From assembly GCA_016869435.1 (NCBI GenBank), contig VGEB01000001.1, forward strand, positions 1 to 64,000: DNA of 64,000 nt, in the 5' to 3' direction. Positions 1-32,179 of this stretch are shown in pieces; position 1 is the stretch's first letter; each line of letters starts with the position of its first letter. The translations under genes and the position numbers were made by a program. A model generated the notes under the pieces. That model made no database searches, had not been told where the DNA came from, and was given only the letters and a program-made list of their open reading frames with translations. Source of the stretch: Alphaproteobacteria bacterium (GTDB taxonomy: Bacteria; Pseudomonadota; Alphaproteobacteria; Rhizobiales; Beijerinckiaceae).

Positions 1-242
1 CATCCGTCGTCAGGTCGAGGATAAAGGCGCGATGCCGAACATCCCGCCAAAGACGAACCGCAGATGGAAGAACTGCTTCTCGCCCTTCCTCTATCGCAAC
101 CGCAACGCCATCGAGCGGATGTTCGGGCGGCTGAAGGATTTCCGACGCATTGCAACGAGATATGATCGACTCGCAGCAAACTTCCTCGCAGCCGTCTGCC
201 TTGCCGCGACCGTCAGCTATTGGTTATGAGTCCGGAGCCTAA
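1..242 (+). mobile_element. 3' end of an IS5-family-like insertion sequence (C-terminal transposase fragment and terminal end; element continues off the left edge)
   Basis: ORF 32..229 ends in IERMFGRLKDFRRIATRYDRLAANFLAAVCLAATVSYWL, typical of IS5-family DDE transposase C-termini. It is followed closely by a probable terminal repeat (ggttatgagtccggagcc) and then unrelated sequence at about 240. Confidence 0.7.
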
Positions 243-305
243 GTCACGCGAGCTGATCCCCAGTTCGACGCTGAGTTCTTGAAGCAAATCATGGGGCTGA
301 GTCAT
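240..305 (-). pseudogene. 5' stub of an ORF interpreted as retron reverse transcriptase, interrupted by the IS end
   Basis: ATG (303-305) overlaps the effector stop as ATGA. It encodes MTQPHDLLQELSVELGISSRDL, then runs into the IS end. Position (msr-msd, effector, RT) matches Eco1-type retrons. Confidence 0.6.
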
Positions 306-1276
306 GACGGCACCCTAGAACCCGCTACAGTCTGTTTGACGTGTCGTGGTAGTGGCGTCGTCCTACTGATTGCGAGCGCAATATCTGCCTTACGGCGAGA
401 GCTATCAGAAATCGCTACTCCATCCTTGAAGCTGTAATCAAACGGATCACGGTCAATTAGAGCATAGAAATAGTCTTTTCCAGAGTAGGGCAACATCCTT
501 ATCCACCCGACTAATTGCAGGCAATACAATATGTTGCGTATTTCTTTCTCAGTCAAACCAAGACCAATGGCTTCAACAACTTTATATAGAACCCTTGTAT
601 TTATCGCAAAAGTTATGAAAACAATCCAGTAAACGCTAAACATGTTTCTCGCGTTGGCGGATTGCACGAGTAGCTCGGATTTTGGTGCAGATTCCAAATG
701 ACCATTAATAAAATTGATCATTTCTTTCTTGTGCGGGGAAGCCGACCTCAATATAAGTTTTCCGCCTCGATTTGTTCTCCACGGATAAAATCCCACAAAC
801 TCGTCACTATCCTTCTTTATTCGCTCTACGGGCCCAAACCGGATAAATGATTCTTCGTTTGCGTGCCGTTCTTTAAGTATAAGTCGTAACTTTGCGCGGA
901 TGTGTTCGTTGCTCGCAAAAGCGCCCAACTCCGCCAAGCTCCCGGGGCTCTCCGCTACAACAAGGATAACCGATGCTATATGCGCGATATCTTCTTCGAA
1001 CGAAATAAGGTCGTGATAATCGGTCTCTCGATAAAGTTGGTTAGCTTCTTCGGCTAATACTACGTGGCCCTTGAGTGGGCTTCTGACTTGAAAAGATCGA
1101 TAAAGATAGTCTCTCAAACTTTGAAATTGGTCCGACCTTTCCTTCGAAACTACGCCCCCACAAAAAAAGACAACTTTTGTCGGCCGGGCGACCCTTAATT
1201 TGTCCTCGTTCAGATCGGAGTAAAAACTGACGATTTCGTCGATCAACTGCTCTTTACCCTTGGAAGGCAGGAACAA
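302..1276 (-). CDS. Retron effector, nucleoside deoxyribosyltransferase-like (Eco1/St85-type)
   Basis: Motifs VVFFCGGVVS, DLISFEEDIAHIASVILVVAESPGSLAELGAFASNEHIRAKL and SFIRFGPVERIKK resemble the Ec86/Eco1 effector as I remember it (IFLCGGDV..., FPESPGSFTELGAFSNNENLRRKL, SFINYGPVRLLRK). Start uncertain: TTG at 1276 lies inside the msd hairpin; TTG at 1246 with upstream AAGGG is an alternative. Confidence 0.8.
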   Translation of the reverse strand: MFLPSKGKEQLIDEIVSFYSDLNEDKLRVARPTKVVFFCGGVVSKERSDQFQSLRDYLYRSFQVRSPLKGHVVLAEEANQLYRETDYHDLISFEEDIAHIASVILVVAESPGSLAELGAFASNEHIRAKLRLILKERHANEESFIRFGPVERIKKDSDEFVGFYPWRTNRGGKLILRSASPHKKEMINFINGHLESAPKSELLVQSANARNMFSVYWIVFITFAINTRVLYKVVEAIGLGLTEKEIRNILYCLQLVGWIRMLPYSGKDYFYALIDRDPFDYSFKDGVAISDSSRRKADIALAISRTTPLPRHVKQTVAGSRVPS

Positions 1277-1428
1277 GCTGGAGAGCCAGCGGCAGGAGCA
1301 ACGCGACTAGAGATGGCTCTCCAGCTTGTTCCTGCCGTTAAGCGCTAACAATAACGTTCCGTCTGGCGAAGCGCCCGACAGAGCCGAGACAGATAAGCTG
1401 ATTCGGCTCGCACGCGTAAAAAGCAATT
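1245..1428 (-). ncRNA. Retron msr-msd non-coding RNA
   Basis: a1 (1416-1428, AATTGCTTTTTAC on the minus strand) pairs with a2 (1245-1257, GTAAAGAGCAGTT) over 13 bp with 2 G-U. msr stem-loops at 1381-1409 and 1361-1379. msd 23-bp perfect hairpin: arms 1266-1288 and 1314-1336, 25-nt loop. Located directly upstream of the effector. Confidence 0.75.
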
Positions 1429-1431
1429 TTT

Positions 1432-1461
1432 AGTATGGAGGAATTCGTGTCTACGCGTCAA
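1432..1461 (-). promoter_or_regulatory. Putative sigma70-type promoter for the retron RNA
   Basis: Minus-strand TTGACG (1456-1461), 18-nt spacer, CATACT (1432-1437). The expected start falls at about the a1 5' end (around 1425-1428). Confidence 0.45.
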
Positions 1462-1485
1462 ATAAAAGTGTACCGAATTACGTTG

Positions 1486-1524
1486 CAGCATGGCGATCAA
1501 TGCCGAGCTATCGACGACGATCAT
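1486..1524 (-). pseudogene. vapC: Truncated vapC (PIN-domain toxin) 5' end
   Basis: ATG overlaps the vapB stop (ATGA). It encodes MIVVDSSALIAML, a typical VapC N-terminus, then loses homology at about 1485 where the retron-bearing segment begins. Confidence 0.65.
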
Positions 1525-1769
1525 GGCTCGTTGATGTCGTCCATGATCTCCTGTGGAGAACGCGGATCGAGAATCGGCAAGGCGGCGATTTCGGCGCCCA
1601 ACGCCTGCATCTGTTCGACCGTCATGCGACGTCGACGTCGCGCCGGCGCCACGCCCGCCGCCCGCGCGGACTCTTCCAGCGCCTGACGGACGGCCTCGTC
1701 GACGGAAACCCGGCGAGCCGCCGCGAGGCGCTCGGCCAGGGCCTCGGTCTCTCGGGAAAGCGCGATCAT
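1521..1769 (-). CDS. vapB: VapB-family antitoxin
   Basis: 82 aa MIALSRETEALAERLAAARRVSVDEAVRQALEESARAAG..., antitoxin-like RHH/Rv0623-type sequence, followed by the vapC start. Confidence 0.75.
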   Translation of the reverse strand: MIALSRETEALAERLAAARRVSVDEAVRQALEESARAAGVAPARRRRRMTVEQMQALGAEIAALPILDPRSPQEIMDDINEP

Positions 1770-20321: not shown

Positions 20322-20342
20322 TCGCTGCTCGCCGAAAGAAGT

Positions 20343-20440
20343 GGGAGGCTGAACGAAGACCCGCCCAAGCTCGTTAGGGCTGCTTCCTTCCGGACCTGAC
20401 CCGGTTGGCGAGTGAAGCGTCCACCGCCAACCTCCCGGCC
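20343..20440 (-). ncRNA. ffs: Bacterial small signal recognition particle RNA (4.5S)
   Basis: Minus strand contains GGTCAGGTCCGGAAGGAAGCAGCCCTAACGAG; 5' GGGAGG pairs with 3' CCTCCC; directly upstream of dnaX. Boundaries approximate. Confidence 0.92.
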
Positions 20441-29326: not shown

Positions 29327-32179
29327 ATGCCGGAGGCGGTTTCAAGTCTTGAAGACGGCGCATCGACGCGCCCTTTGGAAGAAACGCAGAAGGCTGCGCT
29401 TGAGATCGTGCGCGGTCTCGTCACCGAGTTGCATCCCGATTTCGTCGACTTGCGGCTCGTGCGCCTCGACTGCGACCTTGACAGAGATTTAGGGCTCGAC
29501 AGCCTGTCGCGCGCCGAGCTGCTGCTGCGGCTTAATCGCAAGTTCAAGGTTCAGCTTCCCGAAGGACTGATTGGACAGGCCAACAGTCCCCGCGATCTCG
29601 TCAACGCAGTTCTCGCCGCTGGCGCAGCTTTGCCGCCTGCGTCGTCTCGTCCAATATCGCATGTGACGCTTGAGAGCGTGGACGAGCCGATCGAGGCCAA
29701 GACGCTGATCGATGCGCTCGCTCGACATGCCGAGCGCCACGAGGCTCGTGAACATGTCTTGCTCTGGCGAGCCGAAGGTCCTCCGGAGCCGATGACATAC
29801 GGCGAACTCTACCACGCGGCGCGCGCCGCAGCGGGCGGCCTCGTTGAGCGCGGCGTCGGTTGTGGAGATCGCGTTGCGATCATGCTGCCGACTAGCCGCG
29901 ATTTTTTCGTCGCTTTTTTTGCGGCATTGTTTTGCGGTGCGGTTCCTGTGCCGATTTATCCGCCCTTTCGCTTGGCGCAGATCGAGGAACATTTGCGCCG
30001 CCAAGCCGGCATATTGTCGAACGCCGAAGCCGGCGTGCTCATCACCAATGCCGAGATCAGAGTCGTCGGAAATTTGCTCTATGGGCTCGTCAGCGCGCTT
30101 CAACACATCGTGACGATTCGGGATCTGAACTCTGCTCCGCCTATATCCGGACCATTGCCGGCGCCGCCCGACGCCACCGCGCTCATCCAATACACCTCAG
30201 GCAGCACCGGCGATCCCAAGGGCGTCGTTCTGTCTCACGCCAATCTCCTTGCGAACATCCGCGCCATGGGCGGGATGCTGAAGGCTTCGTCGGCAGACAG
30301 GGTCGTGAGCTGGCTGCCGCTCTATCATGACATGGGGCTCATCGGCTGCTGGCTTGGCAGTCTCTACTACGGAGCGACGGCGCTCATCATGTCGCCGTTG
30401 TCCTTTCTCGCTGATCCGGCGCGCTGGTTCTGGGCGATCGATACGCACAAGGCCACAATCTCGGCGGCGCCCAATTTTGCCTACGAGCTGTGCTTGAAGG
30501 CGATCGACGATACGAAAATTCGCGGTCTGGATTTATCGTCGCTGCGAGCGATTATGAACGGCGCCGAGCCGGTCAGTCCAACATCCGTCGCGCGCTTTGC
30601 TCAGCGATTTGCGCCTTACGGCTTTCGGCCCGAGGCGATGACTCCCGTTTACGGATTGGCGGAAAATGCGGTTGGGCTTGCCTTCCCGCCGCTAGGCCGG
30701 GGACCGCTGATCGATCGCGTGGATCGCAAGGCGCTCGACCGGGACGGCGTTGCGCGAGTCGCGGCCGCCAACGTCGAGAACGTCATCTCTCTCGTTGCCT
30801 GCGGACGGCCTCTTCCGCATCATGAAATCCGAGTTGTCGATGACGCCAGTCGCGAATTGCCGGAGCGACACGAAGGGCGCATTCAGTTCCGCGGGCCGTC
30901 CGCGACGCGAGGATATTTCCAGAATCCGGAAAAGACCGCTGCGCTGTTTGACGGCGATTGGCTCGAGACCGGCGATCGCGGCTACATCGCAGGAGGCGAT
31001 GTCTTCATCACAGGCCGCATAAAGGATCTGATCAAGCGCGCCGGACGCAACATTTATCCGCAGGAGCTCGAAGAGGCTGTCGGTTCGCTTGAAGGAACGA
31101 GAAAAGGCTGCGTCGCGGCGTTTCCCGCGATCGATGCGCGCGCCGGCACGGAGAGGCTCGTCGTCCTCGCCGAAACGCGCCTGACCGACGATGCGCGACG
31201 GGAGTCCCTGCGCAAGAGGATCGTAGAGGCGTCTCAAGCCTTGCTCGATCTCGCGCCGGACGAAGTCGTTCTCGTTCCGCCGCACACCATCCCCAAGACG
31301 TCGAGCGGGAAAATAAGGCGCTCGGCCGCTCGCGCCATGTTCGAATCGGGTCAGTTGCGAACGAAAGGCAAAAGCCCGCAATGGCAGCTCGTGCGCGTCG
31401 CCCTCTCCGGCGTTGCGCCTCGGCTGCATCGCTTCTCGTTAAATTTCGCTATTTCGGCTTTTAACGCTTACGCGTGGAGCGTGCTGGTCCTGATTGGCGC
31501 TTTGGTTTGGCCATGCGTGCTGTTGACGCCGAAGCGAATATGGCGTCACCGCCTTGTCAGCGCGGCCGCGCGATTGTTTTTCCGCGCCATCGGATGCCCG
31601 CTCACGATTACCTGCGACGCGCCAGTTCGGCAGGAAAATGCGGTCCTCATCGCCAATCATTCGAGCTATCTGGACAGCGCCGTCATGGTCGCCGCCTGTC
31701 CCGGCGAGCTTTCGTTCGTTGCGAAGGAAGAACTTGCGCATCAGCTTGTGGCTGGTCCCTTCTTGCGGCGGATTGGCGCGATCTTCGTGCGCCGCACCGA
31801 CCCGGCGGGCGGCGTCGCCGACGCAAGAGCCGCCTTGCAGTCAGCGCGCGCCGGCATGCGCCTCGTCTGGTTTCCCGAAGGCACCTTTTCGCGAATGCCC
31901 GGGCTATTGCCATTTCATATCGGCGCGTTCTCAACCGCCGCGCAATTGGGGCTTCCGGTCGTGCCGATCACCATACGCGGGACGCGTTCGATTTTACGCA
32001 GCGATTCATCGCTGTTCAGGCGCGGCCCCATCGCCGTACATATCGGCGCGCCAATCGAGCCGAAGGGCGCCGATTTTCAAGCGGCGGTCGGGTTGCGCGA
32101 CGCTGCGCGCAAAAAAATATTGGAGCATTGCGGCGAGCCCGACCTTGGCCATGAGAGAGTGACGCTGACGGCGCCCTAA
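29327..32179 (+). CDS. Multidomain ACP - fatty acyl-AMP ligase - PlsC-type acyltransferase
   Basis: 950 aa: ACP (DRDLGLDSLSRAELLLRL), AMP-binding (YTSGSTGDPKGVVLSHANLLANI), C-terminal acyltransferase (IANHSSYLDSAVM; FPEGTFSRMPGLLPF). Confidence 0.9.
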   Translation: MPEAVSSLEDGASTRPLEETQKAALEIVRGLVTELHPDFVDLRLVRLDCDLDRDLGLDSLSRAELLLRLNRKFKVQLPEGLIGQANSPRDLVNAVLAAGAALPPASSRPISHVTLESVDEPIEAKTLIDALARHAERHEAREHVLLWRAEGPPEPMTYGELYHAARAAAGGLVERGVGCGDRVAIMLPTSRDFFVAFFAALFCGAVPVPIYPPFRLAQIEEHLRRQAGILSNAEAGVLITNAEIRVVGNLLYGLVSALQHIVTIRDLNSAPPISGPLPAPPDATALIQYTSGSTGDPKGVVLSHANLLANIRAMGGMLKASSADRVVSWLPLYHDMGLIGCWLGSLYYGATALIMSPLSFLADPARWFWAIDTHKATISAAPNFAYELCLKAIDDTKIRGLDLSSLRAIMNGAEPVSPTSVARFAQRFAPYGFRPEAMTPVYGLAENAVGLAFPPLGRGPLIDRVDRKALDRDGVARVAAANVENVISLVACGRPLPHHEIRVVDDASRELPERHEGRIQFRGPSATRGYFQNPEKTAALFDGDWLETGDRGYIAGGDVFITGRIKDLIKRAGRNIYPQELEEAVGSLEGTRKGCVAAFPAIDARAGTERLVVLAETRLTDDARRESLRKRIVEASQALLDLAPDEVVLVPPHTIPKTSSGKIRRSAARAMFESGQLRTKGKSPQWQLVRVALSGVAPRLHRFSLNFAISAFNAYAWSVLVLIGALVWPCVLLTPKRIWRHRLVSAAARLFFRAIGCPLTITCDAPVRQENAVLIANHSSYLDSAVMVAACPGELSFVAKEELAHQLVAGPFLRRIGAIFVRRTDPAGGVADARAALQSARAGMRLVWFPEGTFSRMPGLLPFHIGAFSTAAQLGLPVVPITIRGTRSILRSDSSLFRRGPIAVHIGAPIEPKGADFQAAVGLRDAARKKILEHCGEPDLGHERVTLTAP

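Follow-up and report, generated by a model that had tools for sequence, protein, structure and literature searches.

Retron-Eco1 (Ec86, type II-A) acts as an NAD-hydrolysing filament, in which the effector is assembled with RT-msDNA (PMC12405507, PMC12887533). A mobile element within the RT is known from another natural retron, Retron-Bth1, whose RT is interrupted by a group II intron; RT-DNA is still made, and there is no canonical effector (PMC12548924). Taking type II-A as defined by the PADLOC names and two papers (PMC12405507, PMC12548924), we investigated a locus at the start of a 64,000-nucleotide stretch of DNA, hereafter the window. An earlier note had described a retron there. Its assignment to the type II-A family, with intact RNA and effector, was upheld, but a complete working system was not found, as the RT is cut and is absent from the assembly. 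In our judgement, the locus is very probably a type II-A retron disabled by an IS5-family element, with the RT lost, the RNA and effector intact and the effector most likely inert. It is thus a new but non-working example of an already known retron type, and probably a recent relic.

The retron unit runs on the minus strand from 1461 to 302, through a promoter-like site, a1, two msr hairpins, the msd hairpin, a2 and an ORF of 314 aa; the complete msr-msd RNA spans 1428-1245. Position 1 of the window is base 1 of contig C1 and lies within the insertion sequence (IS), whose far side is outside the window. The features are as follows.

1432-1461, minus strand: promoter-like TTGACG-N18-CATACT (consensus scan; a likeness in sequence only)
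1349-1432, minus strand: a1 and msr, comprising TTTACGCG, stem-loop 1 (1409-1381), stem-loop 2 (1379-1361) and TTATTG (covariance model)
1416-1428, minus strand: a1, AATTGCTTTTTAC (13 contiguous pairs with a2)
1361-1379, minus strand: msr stem-loop 2, GTCGGGCG-CTT-CGCCAGAC (covariance model from nine relatives)
1266-1336, minus strand: msd hairpin with a perfect 23-bp stem, 1336-1314 / 1288-1266 (sequence and RNA fold)
1245-1257, minus strand: a2, GTAAAGAGCAGTT, sharing two bases with the effector start codon (sequence, pairing with a1)
302-1246, minus strand: NDT-like type II-A retron effector, 314 aa, TTG start (PADLOC, PDB 7v9x, fold match to 7xjg/8qbl)
239-304, minus strand: 5' end of the retron RT gene, 22 codons, MTQPHDLLQELSVELGISSRDL (N-terminal similarity to the RTs of relatives)
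1-242, plus strand: right end of an IS5-family element with the C-terminal part of its DDE transposase (Pfam DDE_Tnp_1_2; four copies end at the same base)

The promoter-like site, the 13-bp a1/a2 pairing (G-U pairs counted), the two msr stem-loops and the msd hairpin had all been read from the sequence in the earlier note, and each was recovered. Promoter-like sites numbered 2 in 401 nt of the consensus scan, against 0.3 expected from shuffles. The RNA stretch folded at -98.9 kcal/mol (z = -9.1), and none of 200 dinucleotide shuffles was equally stable. Homologues of the RNA were found by a covariance model based on an msr alignment of nine regions 5' of NDT_II-A effectors (six alphaproteobacterial and three gammaproteobacterial, the window being left out). 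In all of these regions a1 is followed by TTACGYG, and they also share a hairpin (GTC-n-GGYG-nnn-nGCY-n-GAY) and ATTG. Within the hairpin columns, 95.8% of cells were paired, compared with 28-47% when slid, with few true double-sided changes (one pair). The model matched the window at 47.0 bits (E 4.7e-9), and among 61 genomes (its own, the same genus and the same order) only the window's genome and one other (G056) matched; the same two were the only carriers of the effector. The a1/a2 pairing is conserved in 28 other retrons. Across 29 retrons, a1 paired better with the a2 of its own retron than with permuted partners, the mean being reached in 0 of 20,000 permutations, in a test with a2 positions hand-picked from the GTA motif and the relatedness between retrons left in. 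The sequence evidence thus supports an RNA that looks intact from a1 through msr and msd to a2. A second match of the model, at 31455, was attributed to chance (11.6 bits, E 0.65), and a sub-threshold match of the msd hairpin to Rfam MIR528 was rejected as that of a plain long hairpin. No Rfam 15 family matching within the window covers the RNA signature used below. Elsewhere in the window, a small bacterial SRP RNA is encoded at 20340-20436 on the minus strand (RF00169, 58.7 bits).

The assignment of the ORF to an Eco1/St85-type effector also held. It matched PADLOC NDT_II-A at 5.5e-67, and its convincing relatives among PDB sequences were the Ec86/Eco1 effector chains (7v9x), at 5.4e-13 with the single sequence and 2.1e-29 with a 20-sequence profile; Pfam had no model for it. 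The AlphaFold2 model (pLDDT 90.6, pTM 0.88) has an NDT-like domain and a C-terminal winged helix, and its three best PDB matches were the Eco1 complexes 7xjg, 8qbl and 8qbk (E 1.1e-9 to 3.8e-9, probability 1.00). The TM-scores against these complexes were modest (0.46-0.51), which may reflect a difference in how the two domains are angled in the predicted model. Glu106, the residue replaced by Ala in 8qbl, an inactive Eco1 filament, is invariant in 20 sequences and is also residue 106 of the window's effector. The N-termini of relatives place the start at TTG 1246-1244, so that the last two bases of a2 fall in the start codon; on the same ground, a TTG at 1276, which lies in the msd stem, was discarded as the start. 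The closest effectors found were those of Microvirga (51% identical), Mesorhizobium (46%) and Brevundimonas (43%). Sequence and model together support an effector gene of the type II-A NDT type that looks intact.

Comparison with the genomes of relatives, in which the gene order is glmU-vapB-vapC-glmS with vapC whole, showed that the retron unit splits vapC, between glmU-vapB and glmS. The window departs from the relatives' DNA at 1489/1490, after vapC MIVVDSSALIAML. On this side (1479-1769, minus strand), the VapB-like antitoxin gene (1521-1769) is intact and vapC breaks off at the insertion point, some 13 codons in. On the glmS side (contig C63), the last ~180 bp match none of the IS flanks. 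The effector was absent from all 36 other genomes of the genus examined, so the retron unit was probably acquired in this lineage, and on our reading horizontally.

The order ncRNA-effector-RT on one strand was likewise borne out: the RT ORF starts at 304, its start overlapping the effector stop (ATGA). Its N-terminus aligned with the Microvirga RT at a BLOSUM62 score of 39, reached by 0 of 2000 shuffles, and the score summed over the RTs of ten relatives was also reached by 0 of 2000. The RT-positioned ORF start of the earlier note is therefore present and similar to the RTs of relatives, but it holds only 22 retron codons before an IS5-family element, whose end lies near 240, breaks it; no complete RT with YADD and VTG motifs exists at the locus. 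The element has the DDE transposase, inverted terminal repeats and short target duplication of its family. An RT ORF left of the IS, whose lack in the full genome would, according to the earlier note, speak against its reading, was not found in the assembly. PF00078 (RVT_1) had no match in the host genome (controls matched in 3 of 14 genomes), the RT of a relative (L017) had none in the host assembly in a search without a positive control of its own, and no RT is encoded at any of the four IS left ends.

It might be argued that the IS was simply inserted, the organism itself having both RT halves and only the draft lacking the 3' one, so that the retron would be inactive until the IS exits precisely. 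The contig does break exactly in the IS, and with the 3.16-Mb draft in 209 contigs, a contig carrying the 3' part of the RT could have gone unassembled or been discarded. But the assembly is 99.92% complete, the RT is absent from all of it, and right ends (C1, C120, C107 and C41) and left ends (C92, C111, C40 and C8) are equal in number, four each, with no RT sequence in the left flanks, which encode a membrane protein, lspA, a DUF3035-type gene and a SEC-C-type gene. We consider this explanation unlikely.

The ends of the IS read GGCTCCGGACC.. and ..GAGTCCGGAGCC, and TA adjoins both end types in all four copies. Because a TTAA target is common to three copies, the ends cannot be paired by target duplication alone. 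C111 and C107 were paired by an interrupted reading frame in common, and C8 and C41 by a common CTAG target. At the former pair (L040 and L009), the IS splits the membrane-protein gene, the halves of which read on across the TTAA target. The left flanks left over were C40 (lspA) and C92 (DUF3035-type and M16 peptidase genes), neither with an RT, so the retron's IS joins C40 or C92 or, less likely, unassembled DNA. The end of C40 (L041, lspA) and the start of C92 (L039, DUF3035-type) both stop at an IS left end, with TTA/TAA flanks. These two flanks are direct neighbours in relatives. Two left ends that face one ancestral gap suggest, as far as contig ends can tell, a rearrangement linked to the IS, either an inverted pair of IS copies or a rearrangement on a large scale. 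It was probably the IS, or a rearrangement that began at it, that also took away the 3' part of the RT.

Considering that the effector gave no match as a direct query of genome_contigs and that the diverse effector alignment held no conserved stretch usable as a query, other retrons were sought by the RNA signature, exactly TTTACGCG-N12..42-GTCGGGCGNNNCGCCAGAC, which occurred in 0 of 100 shuffles of the window. It marked 23 contigs, all proteobacterial by title. Sixteen of them had more than 1.2 kb beyond the signature, and all 16 had same-strand profile matches to an effector and an RT in the order ncRNA-effector-RT; 14 showed no damage within the stored DNA, and two (L087 and L092) were decayed. 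The two viral contigs with the signature each had an effector and an RT. The RNA signature detects both intact and broken type II-A retrons without recourse to the RT. Among the seven shorter contigs, L089 and L098 were visibly decayed and the other five were too short to judge. All four decayed retrons kept the RNA signature; L087, L089 and L098 had decayed by deletion and L092 by insertion of a transposase, which sits between effector and RT. On the E. coli plasmid pCombat13F7-1 (L049, 2270-3151), a St85-type effector has no adjacent RT gene listed, which may be an annotation gap, the PLSDB gene table being incomplete.

These contigs also bear on whether the effector has been kept in its own right, as a stand-alone (or domesticated) NDT/NADase-type enzyme or a toxin, with the ncRNA as a leader or an RNA-only regulator acting via a2 and the start codon. 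The ORF is intact and Glu106 conserved, and a2 holds a purine-rich stretch along with the start codon, so that RNA folding could affect translation. Nevertheless, none of the 16 relatives with sufficient sequence has an intact copy lacking the RT, the other two damaged relatives have damaged effectors as well, and Eco1-type effectors are reported to act within the RT-msDNA filament (PMC12405507, PMC12887533). We regard this as very improbable. That the locus was never a retron and merely resembles one by chance is scarcely credible, as the covariance model, effector profile, effector fold, RT N-terminus and gene order are all concordant.

We therefore return to a type II-A retron disabled by the IS. 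By analogy with Eco1, the RT of intact relatives would prime on a G of the msr and copy the msd hairpin into branched RNA-DNA (msDNA), and RT-msDNA and effector would then assemble and hydrolyse NAD in response to phage. In the window, transcription of RNA and effector from the 1461-1432 site may persist. With the RT absent, we infer that no msDNA is to be expected, that the effector is most likely inert, and that the locus would be decaying. Since the effector ORF is undamaged, either the RT was lost recently or the effector is of some use. The locus is a natural case of an intact type II-A effector gene without its RT-msDNA partner, and the host's tolerance of the lone effector agrees with the idea that Eco1-type effectors depend on the RT-msDNA complex rather than acting as free toxins.

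In comparison with known systems, the locus is like Retron-Eco1 in the order ncRNA-effector-RT, the single long msd hairpin, and the effector fold (NDT-like and winged helix) with Glu106, the Eco1 complexes being its top three fold matches. It differs in that its effector is ~20% identical by structural alignment and has a TTG start overlapping a2, and in that its RT is cut at codon 22. The copies on E. coli and Vibrio plasmids (L020 and L021), whose effector and RT are annotated as retron St85 family, share the msr signature; their effectors are 26% and 21% identical to that of the window, and unlike it they have complete RTs and an additional hairpin between a2 and effector. The closest retron found, in Microvirga sp. 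VF16 (L096), has an effector 51% identical over 309 aa, the same RNA layout and a comparable RT start (LLEELAINLGL, LLQELSVELGI in the window), but its RT stays in frame up to the end of the stored DNA. The remnant in Bradyrhizobium uaiense (L087) has decayed too and has a similar msd and an effector 53% identical over 145 aa; there, however, a deletion fuses the N-terminal half of the effector to the C-terminal end of the RT, and no IS lies in the RT. Retron-Bth1 shares with the window a mobile element in the RT, which in Bth1 is a group II intron and in the window an IS, which does not splice.
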